Source of the DNA: Salvia splendens
Taxonomy: Eukaryota > Streptophyta > Magnoliopsida > Lamiales > Lamiaceae
Direction of reading: 5' to 3'
DNA length: 64,000 nt
Assembly: GCF_004379255.2 (NCBI RefSeq)
Contig: NC_056041.1
Span: forward strand, 14,787,559-14,851,558
Positions 20,728 to 63,900 of this stretch are shown piece after piece. Numbering within the stretch: position 1 is the stretch's first letter; every line of letters starts with the position of its first letter. Made by a program: the position numbers and the translations under genes. The notes beneath the pieces are model-generated. The model saw nothing but the letters and a program-made list of their open reading frames with translations, was not told the DNA's origin and made no database searches.

Positions 20728-22681
20728 GAGCATCCACAACCGTGCTCTTGCCAGCGGCACGGTTGTGGGCCCGGGTGGTACTATTCATGCCTGCTCTCTG
20801 GCAAGAGCACAACACCCACAACTGTGCTCTTCCGCAAGGACGAGCACAATTAATTTAATATTCAATTAAACATAAACATTTCCATAATACTAAAATTCAT
20901 TTAAAAAATATAAATAATATTACAAATGACAAATAAAATAAAAAACGACATAATTAAAATCCTAAAAATTACATAATTAGAATACTAAAAATTAAAAAAA
21001 CCACTACTCGTTGCCGAATTTCGTCCACATGTGTTTGATTAGGTCTTCTTGTAGCTGAATGTGGGTTCGGGTATCGCGCATTGTGTGTCTTGTCTCGATC
21101 CTCTGGCCAACCGTCGTATGCTCACCTCGGCGTGGGGGAGACCTCGCTGTTGAGCTTCCGGCTTCATCCTCGTCGTAGAAGCTAGCCGCCCTTGGCCCTT
21201 CGTCGGCTATAATCATGTTGTGTAAGATAATACACGTGAACATGATGTCGGCGATATTATTCACTTACCACAGCCGAGCCGGAGCCTTCACAATGTTAAA
21301 TCGGGCTTGAAGGACCCCGAAGGCTCTTTCAACGTCTTCCGCGCGGACTCTTGACGCTGCGCAAAAAGAACCCGCCTCGGGTCGTGCGGGTAGTGGAGCG
21401 TCTTCACGAACGTCGACCACCTTGGGTAGATACCATCGGCGAGATAGTAACCCATGTGGTATGTATTTTCGTTGATGGTGAAGTCGATCGCCGGTGCTAC
21501 ACCATTCATCACATCATTGAAGAGTGGTGAAGAATAGACCACGTTCAAGTCGTTGTTGGCTCCGGCAACGCCGAAATATGCATGCCAAATCCATAGGCGG
21601 TAGTCGGCGACCGCCTCAAGGATAAGTGTTGGGCCGCCGCCTTTGTGACCGCTTAAGTGTTGCCCCCTCCAAGCATTCGGGTAATTCTTCCACCTCCAAT
21701 GCATGCAGTCAATGCTGCCAAGCATTCCGGGGAAGCCATGGACTGATTCGTGAAGACGCAGCAACCGTTGGCAATCATCGGTGCTGGGTGCCCAAAGGAA
21801 ATCATCCCCGAAAGCTGAACGAACGCCCTCGCAAAAATTCTTTAGACAAAGGATTCCAATGGACTCACCGATATGCAAATACTCGTCGAAGATGTCGGCC
21901 GTTTGCCCAATAGCGAGTTGTCGGATGGCACACGTACACTTCTGCAACGGCGTGATACTTTGCCGGCCGGCTGCATCTTGACCTGTTTGGGAGAATTCAA
22001 CACGTGCGGACAATGTGTTGACAATTCGCATGAACAAGCGCTTTGACATGCGAAAACGGCGCCTGAAGTAATCTGCCGGAAACCGCGGCTGGTCGGCAAA
22101 GTAGTTGGCAACGAGCCTTTCGTGGGCTCCCTCCCGGTCACGATGGATGTAGCGCCGATTTGATCTGGTTCGTTGAGGAGGAGGAGCGGGGGTATTCGCC
22201 GTGACATATGCTTCGTAAGCGGCACGATGTTGTTCGTAGTATTCTTGTTCTTCGCGTTCCGCTTCCGCCATAATATGGGTGAAATCCATTTGAGGTTTTG
22301 AATGAGGGATGAATGTGTTGATAGTTTGTATGAGAGATGAATGGGAGATGAATTGATGTGATAAATGGATGATGAATTTGTGTATTTATAGATGATTTTG
22401 GGGGGAAAAATAAAAAAAAACTCAAAAAAATTCAGAAAAAACGGGAAAAAAACGGCCATATTTTTGGGATTTGGAAATTTTTTTTAATCATTTTATATAA
22501 TTTAAAAACGATTTTTAAAATAAAAAATAAATAAATTCAAAGGCAACGGCATAGCCGTTGCCCAATCATAAGCCGCCACGTCGCCTGCTCGCTGGCACGG
22601 CGCGAGCGCAGCGGCGGCGGTCCTCGTCCTCGCCGCTGGCACGGACGGCGGCCTTCACTCCCACCACCGTTGTGGATGCTC
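20728..22681 (-). mobile_element. PIF/Harbinger element, family A, transposase only
   Basis: The inverted ends are GAGCATCCACAACCGTGCTC and GAGCATCCACAACGGTGG (right end reversed), with TAA at 20725-20727 and 22682-22684. The left 180 bp, with GTGCTCTTGCC and GCAAGAGCACAACACCCACA motifs, match 7014-8739. The only gene is a transposase on the minus strand with a TATAAATA box at 22383-22390. There is no ORF1. Its right-hand TAA is at the same time the left-hand TAA of the next element. Confidence 0.92.
21004..22289 (-). pseudogene. PIF/Harbinger DDE transposase, nearly intact
   Basis: The frame runs from ATG 22289 (MDFTHIMAEAEREEQ) with an N-terminal helix-turn-helix-like region (FPADYFRRRFRMSKRLF), first catalytic Asp in GSIDCMHWRW and second in GANNDLNV. 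Near 21340 a one-base loss shifts the phase; the following DVERAFGVLQARF segment, with the catalytic Glu, is in the new frame. One stop (TAA near 21267) precedes NNIADIMFTCIILHNMI, and the tail ends at 21004. Family proteins are about 380-430 residues and cut DNA at TWA sites. With only one shift and one stop, this is a recently disabled gene. The promoter TATA (22383-22390) is intact. Confidence 0.9.
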
Positions 22682-51785: not shown

Positions 51786-52071
51786 ATGATCGTCTGCGTC
51801 GCCGTCGTCGGCCACCAGGTCCTCACCCTTTTTTTCCGTTTTGATTCTACATTAATTCAATCTGTCTCCTAAAATCCGAATTTGAGCTTGATTGATCAAA
51901 AAGCTTGAAAATCGAAATGAAATTTTGGCTGTAAAATCCGTTCTACATACAGAGTTTTACCGAGGCAGATGATTGTTTTAGCTAACTAAAAAATGTTGAA
52001 AATGGTAAAATCGTGTTGTGTGCAGAATAATCCGTTGTACATACAGAGTTTTACCAAGGGGGATGATTCGC

Positions 52072-52743
52072 TGTTAAGGATCTCGATCCTCAACGTCGAA
52101 GTTCCAACACAATCAAGAAACACACGTCGGAATTGTCGAGCGCCCAAGAACCTTGGGTCGGCGATTCTTCCAACGAAGGGCGGCTGAGCGCGAGATCGTT
52201 CTCGTCGGCAGCCTTAGGAGAGGTTTCTTGTTTGATAAGCTATTGAGCCAAAGTTAATATTATTCATTCATAATCGTTTGCTATCACAACGGCTCTATTT
52301 ATATCTAAACCCTAGGGTTGGTTCGACCTAATCCTAATACGTTCGGGAAAGAACCAACTAAGAAAACCCGAACGGGGCTTATAATTCGCCCGACTCAATT
52401 GCCACAAAAATAATAATAATATTCCAAAAATAGAAGAAACAATAAAGACGTAAATAAAGAAGTCTACTACTAATCGATCGCGGATACGCGATCCTAATCC
52501 CCAAGCCTCTGCGGTGGTCTAATTCGGTTCCTTGGCCTCAACGACCTCGTCGTTGCTGCTGTGCTCGGGTTCAGCTGTCGGCGCGTGGGCGACTCGATAA
52601 CAGCCTCTCGTTCCCCTATGCTCTGTTCCTGCTCAGCCTCTTGCTCCCCCTGCTCCGAGGCATCGATGCTCTGTTCCTGCTCAGCCGAACGCTCCCGCTG
52701 CTCCGAGGCATCACGCTCGTTACTGATAGGGATGCTCGTATCA
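52072..52743 (-). repeat. 3' LTR of the chromovirus
   Basis: Contains the last part of the gag-pol frame (stop at 52494), a TATAAATAG box at 52294-52302 in element orientation, and ends TG...CA. The coding overlap lies in the U3 part, before the TATA box. Confidence 0.95.
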
Positions 52744-55700
52744 ACTCCCCCCTCCTTAACAACATCCTTGTCCTCAAGGTTGAGGTTCGGAAAATGCCTG
52801 CGAATATCGTCCAAAGGTTCCCACGATGGAGAGTCCGTACCATCCGACCATCGCACAAGAACATGTTCCCGTGCCTTTCCCTCGTGCCACATAATCTGGC
52901 TGTCGACCAAGGCCACCGGGTAAACGACTGGGCGACCCCCAACAAAATCCGACGGCAAGGGAACGTGCGTCATCGACCCCTCACCCGCCACAAATTCTCG
53001 CAGAAGGCTGACATGGAAGACGTCATGTATTCGGCTCCCCTCCGGCAGACGTAGTCGGTAAGCAACAGGGCCCACTCGTTGCATCACCTCAAAAGGTCCG
53101 TAATATCGCCTTGCAAGCTTGGCCGAAAGTGGTTTGGCCACCGAAAACTGGCGATAAGGCTGTAATTTCAGCCACACCAAGTCTCCCTCCTCGAACTCCA
53201 CGTGATGTCTGTGTTTATTTGCGGAATCCCGCATCCTCTGCTGGGCTCGTGCCAGATTATTGCGCAACTCGTGAAGCAACGACCCCCGTTGACGTATCAA
53301 TTCTGCAACTTTCGGGGGGGTGGCAGCCAAAGGCGGGGCCGCGACCAATAGAGGCGGATCGCGACCATAAAGAGCTCGGAAAGGTGACGTCCCAAGTGCG
53401 GCGTGGTGGAAACAATTAAGGGACAACTCCGCCCACGGTAACAAATTACACCATTTAGAGGGCCGATCTACTGCAAATGCGCGCAGATATTGCTCCAAGC
53501 CTCTGTTCCGGACCTCCGTCTGCCCATCGGACTGCGGATGGTATGCCGTGGAAAAATGAAGTTTGGTGCCGCTCAGACGGAGCATTTCCTCCCAAGTTGC
53601 ATTTAAGAATACCGAATCCCGGTCCGAGACCAACGTCTTCGGAAACCCATGGTGTCGGACCACCGGGTTGATGAACAAATGTGCTACTCGTAAGGCATCA
53701 AATTTGGTAGGCAATGGCGCAAAATGTGCATACTTGGAGAGCCGGTCCACCACCACCATGATCACGGTGTATCCCCGAGAGGGAGGAAGGCCCGTAATGA
53801 AGTCCATGGACACATCCTCCCACACCTGCGACGGAATTGGCAGCGGCTGCAATAATCCAGCTGGTTTTTGTGTGGAGTACTTCGTCGATTGACACACTGC
53901 GCAAGATTCGACAAATTTCTTCACATCCTTACGCATGTTCGGCCAATAAAATCCTGCCGACAGTAGACGAAACGTACGCTCATGCCCCGGGTGGCCCGCA
54001 AGCGGCGTGCAGTGGTGTTCCGTCAAGAGGACTCGTTTGAACTTAGAGTCGGGGCTGAGCAATATTCGGCGCTTGAAATAAACAAGGCCGTCACTGAAGC
54101 CCAAATGCGGGGGAGCCGTACCTGCCGTGATCTGGTCCACAAGCGCGCGTAAATCCGGTAGCCGCGACGTCTCTTCCCGCAGTGATTCCAGTAGCCTGGG
54201 TATCGGATGAGCAATGACGGCCAACAAGGTGGCGTCGGTGCCCGTTAACTGGTCCGCGGCCCGGATGTCGCCCCCGACGGTGTCATTGCTGGCGTCTCGT
54301 CGGGACAGGGCGTCTGCGACCTTGTTCGTGATTCCCTTCTTATATTCGATGCTGAACCGATAACCCATCAGCTTCCGCACATATAGGTGTTGGTCCGGGG
54401 TCTGGACAATCTGTTGGAGGAGATCCTTCAAGCTCTTTTGGTCGCTTCGAATGATAAATTCACGTCCGAGGAGGTACTGTCGCCATTTCTGTATTGCCTC
54501 CACTATGGCGTACAATTCCTTATGATAAGTCGAAGCGACACGTCGTCGAGGCCCCAATTTCTTACTAAAGTAGGCAATCGGGTGCCTATCCTGGATGAGG
54601 ACCGCACCGATGCCTATGTCCGAGGCGTCAGTCTCAATGCAGAACTGTTTTTCAAAATCCGGAAGACTCAAGACTGGCGCCGTCGTCATAGCCTGTTTGA
54701 GGGCGGAGAACGCAGATTCCGCCGCTGGCGACCATGCAAATGCCTCCTTTTTAAGGAGATCCGTGAGGGGTGCCGCGATCATAGCGTAATTCGCGACGAA
54801 TCTCCGATAATAACCTGTCAGTCCCAAGAATCCCCGCAGCTGTTTCACCTTCTTGGGCGGCGGCCATGAAGTCATTGCTACGATCTTAGTCGGGTCTGCC
54901 TTTAACACTCCGTCCGACACTAAGTGACCCAAGTACTCCACCGTCGTGCCGCAGAAAGAACATTTGGACAGCTTGACAAAAAACTGATGCTGCTGTAGTA
55001 ATTTTAACACCTCCGCCAAGTGTGAACCATGTTCTTCGAGAGTTGGGCTATAAACAAGAATGTCGTCGAAGAAAACGATCACACATTTCCGAAGCAACGG
55101 CTGAAAAATCCCGTTCATGGCCGCTTGCAAGGTAGATGGGGCATTGGTGAGGCCAAATGGCATAACAAGGAACTCAAAGTGGTCGTCGTGTGTGCGGAAA
55201 GCCGTCTTAAAAACATCTGAGTCATGCATGCGTATCTGATGGTATCCCGAGCGCAAGTCCAACTTAGTGAAAAATTTGGCCTTCCCGAGTTCATCGAAAA
55301 GTTCATCTGCCGTCGGTATTGGGAAATGGTCTGGGACCGTGGCCAAATTCAGTGCTCGGTAATCAATGCAAAACCTGAATGTCCCATCCTTCTTCCTGAT
55401 TAGGAGGACTGGAGAGGAGAAAGGGCTATGGCTCCTCTGAATTATCCCTTGCTCTAGCATGTCGCGCACTTGGCGCTCGATCTCGTTTTTCTGAAAGTAC
55501 GGATAGCGATAAGGACGCACATTGACCGGCTTCGAGTCCGGACGTAGATGTATACGATGGTCGAACTCCCTACGCGGCGGCATGCCTGTTGGCATCGAGA
55601 ACAACTGGCGGAACTGCTCCAAAATGCGGCTAACCTCGGGTGGAGTGTCCGGTGGAAATTCTTCCTCCGCCGCTGCCGCGGTCGCCGCACCCTCTGTATC

Positions 55701-57500
55701 AACCCCAATAATTTCATAAAACTCGTGGCTCGGGGAATGAGCTGTGAGCATTGCCAGCGACTGTAAGGAAATTAGGCTTGGGGAAGGTTGGACGCCATGT
55801 AGTGTCACCCGGACCCCATGCTGACTGAACTCCAAGGTTTTCCCAACAAAATCGGCGGATACCTTGCCCAACGACTCCAGCCAATCCATACCCAAAACCA
55901 CATCCGGTCCGTGGATCTCCATAATGTGTAGATCAATTAGGAAGTCCACCCCTTGCACTAACAGCTTCGTACGGCGTGCGATGTGGGAGCAGATTATCGA
56001 TGCGCCGTTGCCCACATACACACGGAATGGGCGAATAGGAGTGAGTGCTAATTGTAACTGCTTCGCCACTCGCGGGTGAAGGAAGTCATGTGTACTGCCC
56101 GTATCTATAAGTATGCTCACCGTCGTTATCCCGATTGTACCCACTACATTGAAGGGACGAGATGTAGAGCCCCCTGCTAAGGACTGGAGGTGCGACAAAT
56201 CCGCAGCTATAACCGTGTCACCCTCATCCTCGGCTTCCGATTCCCCTTGACCCGCGTCGGGCTCGTCCTTGCCCACATAAGAAAGCATCTTCTGTTTGCA
56301 CACGTGGCCGGGTGTCCACTTTTCTGGGCAATGATAGCATAGGCCCTTTCGGGAACGCTCCGATTTCTCCGCGTTCGACACCCGAATCGGTCTAAAGCTT
56401 GGTTTTGCCGATTCCTTGGGTGACGGGTCCGCTTGCCCACCTGCCGGGCCTTGATTGGCCGAGGAAAATCGTGAATCCCGATTCTGCCATTTACCCCGAC
56501 TCGACGACTGCAGGCGCGCCTCGTGCGATGCCCCCAGCCGCAATGCCAACGCCATAGCCTCAGCCAGTGACCCTGGCTGTTGCAACTCCACTTTTTCCTG
56601 AAAAGGCTCCTTCAGACCAGTTATAAAAATCGGGATCAGCGCCTCCTCGGACAGCCCTTGAACTCTGTTAAGGTAGCGTTCAAACGCATCGTGATATTCA
56701 GCCACCGATCCAGTCTGAACCAATTTGGATAATGGACCAATACTGTTGCGAAAACTCTGCGGATCAAACCTGTGGCGCACGTCCTCCAAGAATTCCAGCC
56801 AAGTCACCACCGGATTGTTAGCTCGGTAATTAAAGATCCACTCGGCGGCCGGTGGTTGAAAAAGCATGACCACGTAGTGCAGGCGTTCAGAATCCGGCAT
56901 CTGTAAGTGATCGAAATAATACTCAACGCGTGAAATCCAATTCGCTGCATCCGATCCGTCAAAACGGGGCGCCTTCATGGAGAGATCCTTGGGTCTATCT
57001 GTCCTTGCCGTGGGGTGAGCCGTGCGGGGTGCATCCCACGCGGTAGGTTGGCGATATCCCTGAAAACCCCGATCGATATCACCCCCGTAACGATCCCTCG
57101 GTCTGTCCCAACTTGTGCGCTGCCTGGTATCGGGCCGAACACGGGAGGCTATAGGATTGTAGTCGTTCTGCCCATAATTGTCGTCGCGCCTGAATCCAGC
57201 GCGCAACGCGCCCCGGCGGTTACGGATATCCCCACCACGGCCGTGCCTGCCATGGATGAAAGTCCGGGGGACACCCTCGTCCGCCATCCACTCATCACGC
57301 GGGGAACGAGTCCCCTCCAAATCAACATCGTCCGAGTAGTAGGTAATTTCCGGCTCGGAGTTGCGCGGTGCCTCAATATTGTCTACACGTCTGTTCGTCG
57401 CCTTCAAACTGCTCTCTAATTGATCAAATCGGGCCAGGAGTATCTCGAAGCCGTTGGAAGGAAGAGTCGTCGCCCCTGCGACGTCTTGCGGGGGTCTCAC
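52494..57500 (-). CDS. Chromovirus gag-pol polyprotein
   Basis: An open frame of 1,668 codons without stops. In order: retrotransposon gag region (about 190-300), zinc knuckle CYHCPEKWTPGHVC (near 387-400), aspartic protease with IDTG (near 463), reverse transcriptase with FFDDILVY (near 810), RNase H with ETDASD, integrase with an HHCC zinc finger and a DDE core (MDFITGLP near 1231, SDRDSVF, YHPQSDGQTE near 1321), and a chromodomain (about 1533-1575, LVRWSDGTDSPSWEP). The last 82 residues lie within the 3' LTR and hold AEQEQSI repeats. The frame as given opens with GTG at 57500. The likely true start is ATG 57636 (MDGSDNLIPPAG), in another phase, so a single frame break near 57430-57520 is suspected. 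Function: reverse transcription and targeted integration of the element. Confidence 0.95.
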   Translation of the reverse strand: MRPPQDVAGATTLPSNGFEILLARFDQLESSLKATNRRVDNIEAPRNSEPEITYYSDDVDLEGTRSPRDEWMADEGVPRTFIHGRHGRGGDIRNRRGALRAGFRRDDNYGQNDYNPIASRVRPDTRQRTSWDRPRDRYGGDIDRGFQGYRQPTAWDAPRTAHPTARTDRPKDLSMKAPRFDGSDAANWISRVEYYFDHLQMPDSERLHYVVMLFQPPAAEWIFNYRANNPVVTWLEFLEDVRHRFDPQSFRNSIGPLSKLVQTGSVAEYHDAFERYLNRVQGLSEEALIPIFITGLKEPFQEKVELQQPGSLAEAMALALRLGASHEARLQSSSRGKWQNRDSRFSSANQGPAGGQADPSPKESAKPSFRPIRVSNAEKSERSRKGLCYHCPEKWTPGHVCKQKMLSYVGKDEPDAGQGESEAEDEGDTVIAADLSHLQSLAGGSTSRPFNVVGTIGITTVSILIDTGSTHDFLHPRVAKQLQLALTPIRPFRVYVGNGASIICSHIARRTKLLVQGVDFLIDLHIMEIHGPDVVLGMDWLESLGKVSADFVGKTLEFSQHGVRVTLHGVQPSPSLISLQSLAMLTAHSPSHEFYEIIGVDTEGAATAAAAEEEFPPDTPPEVSRILEQFRQLFSMPTGMPPRREFDHRIHLRPDSKPVNVRPYRYPYFQKNEIERQVRDMLEQGIIQRSHSPFSSPVLLIRKKDGTFRFCIDYRALNLATVPDHFPIPTADELFDELGKAKFFTKLDLRSGYHQIRMHDSDVFKTAFRTHDDHFEFLVMPFGLTNAPSTLQAAMNGIFQPLLRKCVIVFFDDILVYSPTLEEHGSHLAEVLKLLQQHQFFVKLSKCSFCGTTVEYLGHLVSDGVLKADPTKIVAMTSWPPPKKVKQLRGFLGLTGYYRRFVANYAMIAAPLTDLLKKEAFAWSPAAESAFSALKQAMTTAPVLSLPDFEKQFCIETDASDIGIGAVLIQDRHPIAYFSKKLGPRRRVASTYHKELYAIVEAIQKWRQYLLGREFIIRSDQKSLKDLLQQIVQTPDQHLYVRKLMGYRFSIEYKKGITNKVADALSRRDASNDTVGGDIRAADQLTGTDATLLAVIAHPIPRLLESLREETSRLPDLRALVDQITAGTAPPHLGFSDGLVYFKRRILLSPDSKFKRVLLTEHHCTPLAGHPGHERTFRLLSAGFYWPNMRKDVKKFVESCAVCQSTKYSTQKPAGLLQPLPIPSQVWEDVSMDFITGLPPSRGYTVIMVVVDRLSKYAHFAPLPTKFDALRVAHLFINPVVRHHGFPKTLVSDRDSVFLNATWEEMLRLSGTKLHFSTAYHPQSDGQTEVRNRGLEQYLRAFAVDRPSKWCNLLPWAELSLNCFHHAALGTSPFRALYGRDPPLLVAAPPLAATPPKVAELIRQRGSLLHELRNNLARAQQRMRDSANKHRHHVEFEEGDLVWLKLQPYRQFSVAKPLSAKLARRYYGPFEVMQRVGPVAYRLRLPEGSRIHDVFHVSLLREFVAGEGSMTHVPLPSDFVGGRPVVYPVALVDSQIMWHEGKAREHVLVRWSDGTDSPSWEPLDDIRRHFPNLNLEDKDVVKEGGVDTSIPISNERDASEQRERSAEQEQSIDASEQGEQEAEQEQSIGEREAVIESPTRRQLNPSTAATTRSLRPRNRIRPPQRLGD
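52744..52757 (-). other. Polypurine tract of the chromovirus
   Basis: AAGGAGGGGGGAGT on the minus strand directly abuts the 3' LTR, where plus-strand synthesis is primed. It is also coding, for residues just before the LTR boundary. Confidence 0.85.
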
Positions 57501-57636
57501 GCTGTTGTTGTCGCGGCTGACCGTCGCTGCGACGATTGAATGTTGATGCTCGGCGCGACGGGTCGCCGACCAGTAACTGTGCGTTGCCTCCGGTGAGGAG
57601 GCCCGCGGGTGGAATTAGGTTATCCGAGCCGTCCAT
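57424..57636 (-). CDS. Probable gag N-terminus, out of phase with gag-pol
   Basis: ATG 57636 (MDGSDNLIPPAGLL) opens 70 codons that are Arg/Gln-rich before a stop at 57424. It overlaps the long frame by 77 bp but is shifted by one base. As it starts just after the primer-binding region, it is most simply the true start of gag, separated from the rest by a frame break. A programmed frameshift cannot be excluded. It is not an independent gene in my view. Confidence 0.5.
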   Translation of the reverse strand: MDGSDNLIPPAGLLTGGNAQLLVGDPSRRASTFNRRSDGQPRQQQRETPARRRRGDDSSFQRLRDTPGPI

Positions 57637-57646
57637 GGAGAGTACG

Positions 57647-57661
57647 CAATGAAAGACACCA
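57647..57661 (-). other. Candidate primer-binding site
   Basis: TGGTGTCTTTCATTG follows the 5' LTR after two bases in element orientation. It begins TGG, as expected for pairing with a tRNA CCA end, but is not the usual initiator tRNA-Met sequence. I cannot name the tRNA. Confidence 0.4.
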
Positions 57662-57663
57662 GT

Positions 57664-58335
57664 TGTTAAGGATCTCGATCCTCAACGTCGAAGTTCCAAC
57701 ACAATCAAGAAACACGCGTCGGAATTGTCGAGCGCCCAAGAACCTTGGGTCGGCGATTCTTCCAACGAAGGGCGGCTGAGCGCGAGATCGTTCTCGTCGG
57801 CAGCCTTAGGAGAGGTTTCTTGTTTGATAAGCTATTGAGCCAAAGTTAATATTATTCATTCATAATCGTTTGCTATCACAACGGCTCTATTTATATCTAA
57901 ACCCTAGGGTTGGTTCGACCTAATCCTAATACGTTCGGGAAAGAACCAACTAAGAAAACCCGAACGGGGCTTATAATTCGCCCGACTCAATTGCCACAAA
58001 AATAATAATAATATTCCAAAAATAGAAGAAACAATAAAGACGTAAATAAAGAAGTCTACTACTAATCGATCGCGGATACGCGATCCTAATCCCCAAGCCT
58101 CTGCGGTGGTCTAATTCGGTTCCTTGGCCTCAACGACCTCGTCGTTGCTGCTGTGCTCGGGTTCAGCTGTCGGCGCGTGGGCGACTCGATAACAGCCTCT
58201 CGTTCCCCTATGCTCTGTTCCTGCTCAGCCTCTTGCTCCCCCTGCTCCGAGGCATCGATGCTCTGTTCCTGCTCAGCCGAACGCTCCCGCTGCTCCGAGG
58301 CATCACGCTCGTTACTGATAGGGATGCTCGTATCA
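57664..58335 (-). repeat. 5' LTR of the chromovirus
   Basis: Contains the promoter of the element; a TATAAATAG box lies at 57886-57894 in element orientation. It carries a second copy of the polyprotein tail sequence, which is not translated from here. Confidence 0.95.
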
Positions 58336-60125
58336 TTCGCTCAAGCGTCATCACATCGTGCATTGTTCTCTCGACGTCGTTGATGAAAGAGGTACATATG
58401 CTTGTTAGTTCGGGTTTGGTTTTCTACTCGGTTCATTGTTGATCAGTGTAATACTTAAACTTTAGAATCGAGGCATTTTCATTTTTTCGATATAGAGCAA
58501 ATGATGATTCGCGTGGAATGCGTTTGAATCTACATTGCGTGTTAGGATCTTCAGAAGTCGATCAACAGAGATTCAATTTGAAATTCAATGAAAGAGAAAC
58601 TTAGCTAGATAGAGAGCAATTGGTGGAACTGAGGGGAGGATTTTTAGGTGTTTTGAATGCTGTAACTTACTCAGATTTGTGTCAGTCTACAGGTGGGTGT
58701 AATGTGTGATTCAGTGTTTTAACAGTTCTAGAATACCATGATGCAGTGCACCACATGTATGGATGCATAAAATTCAAGGTTTATGTTGATATAAGTGCCT
58801 ATGAATCGTGTTGCATGTACTTAGATTGAACTGCAGCATATATGGGGTTGGGCAGATGTAGAGAGAGAGAGAGCATTATAACACCACCACAGATGCACAA
58901 AATTGTCGTATTTCAGAGCGTGCATACATAAGGTAGAGGTAATACAATCGAGGATTGTTAAGTTGGTGTGTAGCAGTGAAAATGATCTATTAAGTACCAC
59001 ATCTAGAGTTTGTAACAAGTGGAGCAGTTTCCATCCAAGCAAAATTTACATTAGAATCATTTGAGTTGATCTAGAAATATATAGAGGAGTATTTTGGTAT
59101 AGTCAAGATTCAAATTGTAAAGGGAACACTTGGTAGTATCATGTGGAAGAGAAGTGTAAAGAAATAGGTCTAGTTTTCTCATATGCCCTATCTGTTGTAG
59201 CTTATGATGTTACTTATATGCTTTACTGGAATTGTGTCTCTTATCTGTTCATTTAACAATGGCATGTTTCTAATTATTAGCATATTTTTTCATCAGTGAA
59301 CAACCCGAAAAAGTCTGGCCTTATAATAAACGAGACATTTCTTGGTTTGCTGAATCCAACCGAAAACTACAAAGTGTAAGCACAAAATATACTTATCTTT
59401 GGTGAAAACAGAAGATGGATTTGCTTATTCGTCCATAGGTAAGTGCTCACCTGTGCTCATGATCTAATGCTTCTCAGGTATGGTTACTTGACCAATACCA
59501 AGGTGAAGTTCATATTGGTAACAACTGATCTTGAAGTTCGAGATGTAGATGCTAGAGTTGTAAGTGTCACAATTTCGACAAATGTCTGCAACTGCTTCTT
59601 GCTCATCCTATTTTACTTACCATGAGAATTTTTTTTTTGTCTTAATGGAAACATGCTTATTCCATCTATATTACAATCATGAATCTTATATCTGTTATTG
59701 TAGTCACTTCATTTAAAACTTGACCACCAAAAACCGCAAGAAGCCACTTTTTATCATTGTTAGGCTCTTCATGCATTTGAATCTCTCCTCCTCAATCTTG
59801 TGCTCATTCAGATATATTACTATCATAATTTGGCTCAACAGCATGAAATCAGTTGCAACCAGAGTTTGATCATTATTAGTCCTTTCTTTTTACTATGCTG
59901 CATGTTGTTAATCAGATTACAAACTTTTCTATTCTGATTGTTTTTTGTGCCAATGCTTTTTCATTGTCATCTGAATTTTCACAGTTTTTCGGGAGGTTCC
60001 ACACTGCCTATGTTGATGCAGTTTCAAACCCGTTTCACATCCCGGGGAAGAAAATAACATCCAGAAAGTTTGCTGAAAGAGTTAGCACAATTGTCAAGTC
60101 CTTTGGGTTAAGTTCGGGTGGCTGA

Positions 60126-60909: not shown

Positions 60910-63900
60910 TCAGAATTCATCATCATCCTCCTCAGCTATATGTTTAGCAAGTTCTTGCTCTTGCTGCTGTCTCTCTCTCCTCTTTTCTGCACTTTCCTTT
61001 TCTTTATGGGAGTTAGGCGGGAAACGGAGGGCACGGACAGCTTCATTGTGCATATTCAGGCAGAAGGCGATCCTCGAGTTGAATGCTATTTGAGGCTCAT
61101 TTGTGGAGTAAATGTCCCCAGTCTCCTTTGATACCATCCATCCATTAGCACGATCCAAAGTAGCATCGATTGCACCATCTCTGATTGCTTTAGAAACAAT
61201 GCTCTCAGCATCAGCAACAGGATTCGGAGAATCCAGTCTTAGCTTCTTAGCTACATCAACAAGTGAGATTCTGGAGTATGAGATGCTGATGTTCCGCAAG
61301 CCAGTCCGGATAACATTGTGCCGTAGCCTAACTATCAAATTGCTTGTTCCATCAGAGCTGAAGGTGCTGGCAAACTTCTCAGCCACAGATTTGAAGAGCT
61401 CCAAATCTCCAATACGAACAGCCTGTGCCCACAACAGAATATGTGAATGCCAAATAACTATGGGATAGAGCATTACCTATTAGAGAAGCTAAAAAAGGCT
61501 CCCATGTATTTAATACTTCCCTCCTTCCCAAACTTTTGGAATGGCCAGATAAGTCATTATCTTTTCAGTCCAAACAGCCCCAAAGATTTTACAACTTCTT
61601 AATGCCGAATAAAGTTGAATAATGATTTTGTTAATTAGCTTTTTTTTCTCAGCTATCCTGCAAATTTCACTCTCTTCATTTATAGGTTGGTTGACAAGGA
61701 CAAAAACCAGACTCTAGATAGAACAAAACCTGGACTTAAACATGAAGGTGATTCTTACGGTCAGAATTTACGAGTGTTGTACTCACATTTGTAAGCTCGA
61801 AGTATGGTCGCAGTGCCTTCTCCATCCCCTTCTGCATGAAAACAGTTCTTTCTGGAATCTCCCCAAGCAGCAAGCGGACAATCACAGCCCATTTGTTGCA
61901 CTGAACTCGGAAACCAAGGGCAGAAATGGGTGCTTTCCTGGCAGCTTGGAGCAGAGACTCTTTGGCGTCAGTATATTCTAATTGAATTGTCCTGATCTTT
62001 CCAAGGTAAAACAGATACTGAGAGAACTGCAGAAGATTCATAGATGAGAATAATTAGAATGTATAGGCATAAACTCCAACAACCTAAGTTATAGCTACCT
62101 ATAGCCAAAGAACAATTACCATCCACACCTCCCTAGACAAGATGACAACAAAATAAACCGAAATAAAACCCTAAGTAACTATATAATAGTATGAGCAGTA
62201 GTAACATGGCTGAGAGAAGTTATACTTTTGTTAATTTTCAATAATCAGAGTCTAAAAACAAATCCTTAGCAAAATAATGGATCCTCTTGATATTAATGAG
62301 TCGGAACTGAGTACAGTACAGTAAGTTATTCAGGCCCTTTACCAACCCTACAAAGACTGAGAATACATGGGAATTCATAAGCCCATTGCTTTAAATTACA
62401 TTTCACATTTTTGTCCAATTCCAAATTTCCAATATCAGTTTGACACAGGGGCAGGAAATCTGCCTTGAAACTGACCCACATAAAACTATGAATTGATTTA
62501 CCTGCTGATTTGAGTGAGCTTCAAAACGAGGAGCCTTTGATCTCAGTTTCTCTGCCATATCGTATAAGTTGTAATGGAGGTAATTCCTCAGTAACAGGTT
62601 CAGAAGTGTTTCCTGTATTATGCCAGTATGTCATCAGTCACAAAAAACAATAACAAGATTATAACTAAAGAGCGATGACAACCAACCTGACCCAACTCGT
62701 CATGGCGCATAGTCGAAGTTCGGTGTAGAGCGAGAAGATTACTGTTAAGAAATGCTATTCCATTAGATGCGACACAAGCTTACAAACAGCAGACAAATAT
62801 ACATACCCTCGTATTTCAGCAAGAGCCCCAGTAAGTTCATAGCTTAGAGAGTAGTAAAAGTAGAGCCTGGAAGCAAGGACATCAACAGTTCTTCTATTGA
62901 GATTCTTTAAACGAGCTATGCCAGCTGAAGAGCAAGCCTTAGCCTGTAGACAAACAAGAACCACCCATATATTCCAAATGTTCAGACATCATGGAAGTGA
63001 CAAGCTTCTGGTGCTAAAATAATCACACACCCATACCTCATCATATCTCTTCTGATCAATCAGAAATATCAGAACAAGCAAATAGCTATAGATCTCAAGC
63101 TCGGGTAAGGAGTGCTTTGCAGGAGTTTGGGTACCAGATGTTGCTGTATCAATTACCATATCATGCTCGTCCTCCTATAACCATAAAAAATCTAGTAAAG
63201 TGATGCTACCAATACATGCAGCCCCTTAACTTAAAGAAACGATTCAATTAGTAAACTTTATAGATAGGACAAAGAATAGAAATAGAGGGAAAACTGAAAC
63301 CATCACATATACCAACAAGTGAATGTAAAAATGTAAGAAAATTTTGGTGACAGATTAAACACATGGTCTGTATAAAATATACCAATCACCTATCAACACC
63401 TTACAAGCCGAACAACACACTCTGTACAGTAAATTCAACAATTCAGTCGAATATAGACATGTTTACCTTAGGAACATAAGAAGACAAGCGAGTATGCACG
63501 TCTGATCCTGGCAAAAGCACAAACTTAAGAAAAGCAGAAACCACAGAAGCTGTAAGATTCTTCCTCAGCTGGATTGTCCATCGAATAGCTCTGACAATCC
63601 TACGAACTTCTCTTGCATAAGCCCCCACCTCGATTAATGCAGCTATGTCCTTCAGTTCTAATACAAGAAACCAAAAATGCAAAATACAACCCAATGAAGT
63701 GCATTGATTATAAAATTGATGCTCATACTAATTTCCAATTAAGCATCAATTCCACAATATTTTCAAATGTAACAAAATACTACAGAAAATGAACTCCGAC
63801 ACTTCAAACTATATCCCCAAAGCGAATTACGATTAGGCAACGCCTTACAGTAAATCCAAAGTAAATTTGAAACGCCTAAGTAGTAAATACTGACGCTGAA

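Follow-up and report, generated by a model that had tools for sequence, protein, structure and literature searches.

A young Ty3/Gypsy retrotransposon in a coding exon of one TRAPPC2L homoeolog of Salvia splendens

A stretch of 64,000 nucleotides from Salvia splendens (contig NC_056041.1, positions 14,787,559 to 14,851,558 of the forward strand; hereafter the window) carries on its plus strand a gene for the TRAPP subunit TRAPPC2L, the second exon of which is interrupted by a complete long terminal repeat (LTR) retrotransposon of 6,264 bp (52072-58335) lying antisense to the gene. Exon 1 (51786-51818), which encodes MIVCVAVVGHQ and differs in 0 of 33 bases from the homoeologous copy described below, is followed by the left part of exon 2 (52026-52071), ending in a first TTCGC, and, beyond the element, by the right part of exon 2 (58341-58391), exon 3 (59297-59375), exon 4 (59478-59559) and exon 5 with the stop codon (59985-60125). 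Exon 2 is interrupted at the junction 52071/52072. Without the element and one copy of TTCGC, the five exons give 143 codons and a stop, and no stop codon or frameshift occurs in the host gene outside the insertion. The insertion separates the first base of codon 27 from the second and leaves 26 whole host codons; codon 27 becomes chimeric but retains its leucine, and on straight read-through the frame stays open for another 37 codons within the LTR and then meets a stop.

The element is bounded by two LTRs of 672 bp each with TG...CA termini, the 3' LTR at 52072-52743 and the 5' LTR at 57664-58335 (both minus strand), and is flanked by a perfect 5-bp target-site duplication, TTCGC, at 52067-52071 and 58336-58340. 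In the alignment of the LTR pair a single mismatch was found (A at 52124 versus G at 57716), a transition at a CpG site. The longest open reading frame (ORF) of the element, a gag-pol frame on the minus strand (52494-57500) that was listed mechanically from a GTG start, runs without a stop for 1,668 amino acids, and its domains follow one another in Ty3/Gypsy order as capsid, protease, reverse transcriptase, RNase H, integrase and an SH3-like domain. As judged by eye, a purine tract adjoins the 3' LTR. The LTR pair, the target duplication and the domain order identify the element as a Ty3/Gypsy LTR retrotransposon.

The host gene is assigned by sequence comparison to TRAPPC2L of plants (At2g20930 type), on the grounds of Pfam, a Drosophila structure and plant homologues. 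Its empty-site translation matches PF04628 (Sedlin_N) with 119.7 bits over residues 7-135, and among solved structures it matches Drosophila TRAPPC2L with an E value of 8e-29 and sedlin with one of 1.6e-6. In Arabidopsis, yeast two-hybrid assays have examined TRAPPC2L as a TRAPPIII adaptor subunit (PMC11907232). The target duplication, the LTR termini, the exact resumption of the host frame and a collinear homoeolog with an empty site agree to a degree that is more than chance, and the exonic insertion is real. An earlier note on this DNA, made from the sequence alone, had described a 6,264-bp element in exon 2 with TTCGC on both sides and a frame resuming exactly, which the 143 restored codons confirm, and had named the gene TRAPPC2L, as the Pfam match, the Drosophila structure and the plant homologues also support. 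Its term "young chromovirus" holds as to youth, but the chromovirus label is only weakly suggested, since the match to the chromodomain PF00385 behind the integrase (12.4 bits; E 0.16) lies far under the cut-off of 25.1 bits. Similarly, the chain of cpSRP43 matched the ORF of the element with an E value of 0.012 for the whole sequence but of 1.7 for its best stretch.

A six-frame search of the genome with the host protein, which scores the best candidates only, so that unassembled or more distant copies could escape it, returned 18 matches, 17 of which fall within four TRAPPC2L loci, whereas the 18th has an E value of 1.29. One of the loci is the window gene itself, on the contig that we call C10; the other three are uninterrupted and have open reading frames, which bears out the suggestion of the earlier note that the plant might carry another copy. 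On contig C9 (16532287-16534413) a homoeolog of 143 amino acids was found whose exon 2 is continuous through a single TTCGC and which therefore represents the empty site. Its exon lengths equal those of the C10 copy, both flanks of the two loci align, and the introns align at 92-95%. Over the coding region 14 of 429 bases differ (nonsynonymous divergence, dN, 0.021; synonymous divergence, dS, 0.076), giving a dN/dS of about 0.28; exon 3 accounts for 5 of these differences in its 79 bases. The remaining two genes form an older pair, L011 (C9:1189471-1191577) and L012 (C22:24504815-24507137), each encoding 143 amino acids, with a dS of 0.044 between them and of about 0.75 to the window gene. In their residues the members of this pair deviate less from the usual plant sequence than do the C9 and C10 copies, with a dN of about 0.1 between the pairs. 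Other matches to PF04628, on C4, C3 and C6 (two on the latter), are weak when compared with the host protein; three of them have E values of 4e-4 to 7e-4 and are taken by us as TRAPPC2-like, and the fourth lies above 1. The protein of S. hispanica (P0002) had been considered as proof of an empty-site orthologue but was set aside; it is 3/143 residues off the C9 copy and 6/143 off the C10 copy, and the C9 homoeolog was used instead.

Salvia splendens has been described as a tetraploid that recently accumulated LTR elements, often overlapping genes, a setting like that of the insertion reported here (PMC8408255). The same study pairs chr09 with chr10 as homoeologs and places the peak of the whole-genome duplication WGD-1 at a synonymous divergence (Ks) of about 0.08. 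If contig numbers follow chromosome numbers, the C9 and C10 copies would fit both this pair and the WGD-1 peak. At a rate of 1.3e-8 per site and year, the value used in that study, their dS of 0.076 dates the split to about 3 million years ago. For WGD-3 a range of 0.6-0.8 is given, although its peak is not clearly visible in S. splendens itself (PMC8408255); the dS of about 0.75 between the older pair and the window gene falls within this range. However, the published partner of chr22 is chr21, and that of chr09 is chr10 (PMC8408255); the mismatch with the contigs of L011 (C9) and L012 (C22) counts against a simple reading of the older pair. A translocation is a possible reason for their placement.

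The single difference in 672 positions between the LTRs corresponds at the same rate to about 57,000 years, with a Poisson 95% range of 1,400 to 319,000 years. The jump of the element probably dates back no more than a few hundred thousand years, in keeping with the earlier claim that the insertion is much younger than the gene. Intron 1 contains (51881-51974, plus strand) a decayed tandem duplicate of its own terminal stretch together with the first 43 bases of exon 2; this duplicate is also present in the C9 homoeolog, so that it predates the C9/C10 split. It pairs with 51976-52068, and the site of the later insertion follows the end of the repeat by 3 bases; the fossil copy reads FTEADD, the usual form, and the working exon 2 reads FTKGDD.

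We consider it likely that, when a Ty3/Gypsy element entered exon 2 of one TRAPPC2L homoeolog of the tetraploid, the C10 copy, in antisense orientation, the normal product of this copy was lost or strongly reduced, and that the other copies supply TRAPPC2L. Because a read-through transcript would stop 37 codons into the LTR, normal product would be lost or strongly reduced; from a minor share of transcripts the element may be spliced out at the weak sites that the LTR ends provide. The other copies would supply TRAPPC2L to TRAPP complexes, and the insertion would thereby be tolerated. With three uninterrupted TRAPPC2L genes in the same assembly, loss of the C10 copy is probably buffered. The C10 copy is most likely a young loss-of-function or strongly reduced homoeolog, and its insertion most probably marks an early, ordinary stage in the loss of a homoeolog. 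Weighing against this account are a public S. splendens protein (P0003), in which the reading frame of the locus is preserved by a splice, the record being a protein and not a transcript; its name, which as far as displayed bears no pseudogene mark; and the documented splicing of exonic LTR elements out of plant transcripts (PMC6238269, PMC12112155).

P0003, a TRAPPC2L protein of 159 amino acids, is identical to the window read without 52101-58321, and it retains 16 residues from both LTR ends with the frame restored. It implies a putative plus-strand intron of 6,221 nt with GT at 52101 in the left LTR and AG at 58320-58321 in the right LTR. The earlier note had called the allele null after 26 residues. 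The 26 whole codons stand, followed by the 37 LTR codons and the stop, but P0003, a putative in-frame product which, if it reflected a transcript, would be of the kind that the note itself had named as contrary evidence, makes the null status uncertain. One may suppose instead that the element acts as a new intron, removed through splice sites in the LTR ends, and that the resulting TRAPPC2L is functional, its loop ahead of the first helix being longer by 16 residues; we regard this as unlikely, though better supported than the alternatives considered below. Splice-site strengths, computed from base frequencies, place the acceptor at the 91.8th percentile, which is good. The donor (52100), however, reads GAA|GTTCCA and is weak, ranking at the 30th percentile among the window's 3,148 GTs, whereas the gene's four own donors range from the 87th to the 98th. 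Of eight GT-AG pairs that restore the frame from a donor in exon 2 or within the element's first 300 bases, four lie near the junction. That the record contains, of these four, the pair with the lowest homology to S. hispanica favors real splicing, but this pair has the better donor and the better acceptor, and a predictor weighing homology together with site scores could have chosen it without RNA evidence. When the LTR ends were shuffled, at least one frame-restoring pair arose in 1,413 of 2,000 cases and a product of no more than 159 amino acids in 1,078. Given the weak donor and the frequency of such pairs in the shuffles, splicing of the element out of TRAPPC2L transcripts is possible but unproven.

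The 16-residue insert sits in the loop before the first helix, a loop that is longer in sedlin. Residue and loop counts refer to the best 120 of 232 proteins among the matches listed, with the loop unscorable in six of them and residue 29 in one. The loop measures 6 residues in 112 of the 114 scored plant proteins, 8 in one, and 22 in P0003 alone. An AlphaFold model of P0003 built from 26 sequences had a mean predicted local distance difference test (pLDDT) value of 58.1; a second, built from 66 of 120 listed proteins, P0003 included, reached a modest mean of 64.6, one of the five models exceeding 50, and residues 12-45, comprising strand 2 and the insert, stayed below 50. The model still aligns with sedlin, which is weak evidence, and neither model was used as evidence of function. 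It seems rather doubtful, and somewhat more so than the new intron as such, that the LTR ends gave rise to the donor as well as the acceptor of a newly born 6.2-kb intron and that one homoeolog's TRAPP subunit now carries a 16-residue retrotransposon-derived peptide.

Exonic LTR elements have been studied in Arabidopsis with Evelknievel and with ONSEN, a Copia element. Evelknievel in exon 13 of CMT1 is reported to be spliced out in three ways, one of them in frame (25% of splicing incidents), with full-length mRNA of CMT1 very scarce and none recovered from the cmt3 mutant (PMC6238269). As in our case, an LTR retroelement lies in a plant coding exon, the frame needs splicing, and the sites are at or near the LTR ends; in contrast, three splice variants were sequenced there (PMC6238269), whereas the spliced form of the present locus is known from a protein record, which includes 16 additional residues, and the plant also has an uninterrupted homoeolog. 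For ONSEN, most full-length insertions within genes are described as removed as new introns, including one exonic case, which makes it alike as a full-length LTR element (PMC12112155). However, exonic ONSEN insertions most often yielded gene-element transcripts by altered start or termination, which supports the loss of normal product from the C10 copy (PMC12112155). The ONSEN insertions had moreover been newly mobilised and were traced with long cDNA reads (PMC12112155), unlike the present Gypsy element, which is known from DNA and a protein record.

It is improbable that decay of the C10 copy into a pseudogene had set in ahead of the element's arrival. Such decay could be read from an arginine at residue 29, close to the insertion, where 117 of the 119 scored proteins have leucine (100) or phenylalanine (17) and one has histidine, the only other Arg29 being that of the gene's own P0003; the gene had been called "otherwise perfect", which holds for its five exons and frame but not for this residue. 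Yet outside the insertion the frame is intact, the dN/dS against the C9 homoeolog is about 0.28, and, among seven differences between the two proteins, those at residues 44, 49, 107 and 133 are positions at which the C9 copy, and not the C10 copy, leaves the usual residue of the alignments. Until the insertion, the host gene apparently evolved under constraint.

A misjoin that brought the element from elsewhere into the exon is very improbable, for although the mean PacBio read of 7.4 kb in the published polyploid long-read assembly barely exceeds the element (PMC8408255, if the window comes from that assembly), the perfect 5-bp duplication, the TG...CA ends, the exact frame continuation and a homoeolog collinear on both sides oppose it, as does P0003, which carries both junctions, though it may derive from the same cultivar and reads.

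The locus lends itself as a clean natural test: in a polyploid, an LTR element in an exon may either silence the homoeolog that it enters or become an intron, and here the insertion is young, an empty-site homoeolog is at hand and a public record already claims a spliced product. If the element did become an intron, intron birth and protein change would have occurred within about 0.3 million years, with the uninterrupted homoeolog as a built-in control. It also illustrates how the possible breakage of a gene may be concealed by its gene model. No published account of this insertion was found by title or abstract start among the matches listed, where no query joined gene and species and supplements were outside the scope, and the term TRAPP has no occurrence in the main text of PMC8408255. 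A protein search with P0003 recovered the same family again, with no further S. splendens names among the best 120 of 229, and as one name stands for each 90% cluster, this carries little weight regarding other copies.

Within the 64-kb window, blastn detected no further copies of the element's LTR, and an Rfam scan gave no matches at gathering scores. Just downstream of TRAPPC2L and convergent with it, an ORF on the minus strand (60910-61473) contains PCI and Rpn3_C domains, as in a 26S proteasome regulatory subunit of the RPN3 type. Farther upstream, at 21288-22289 on the minus strand, an ORF of 333 amino acids with a Plant_tran (PF04827) domain encodes a transposase that we take to be PIF/Harbinger-like.
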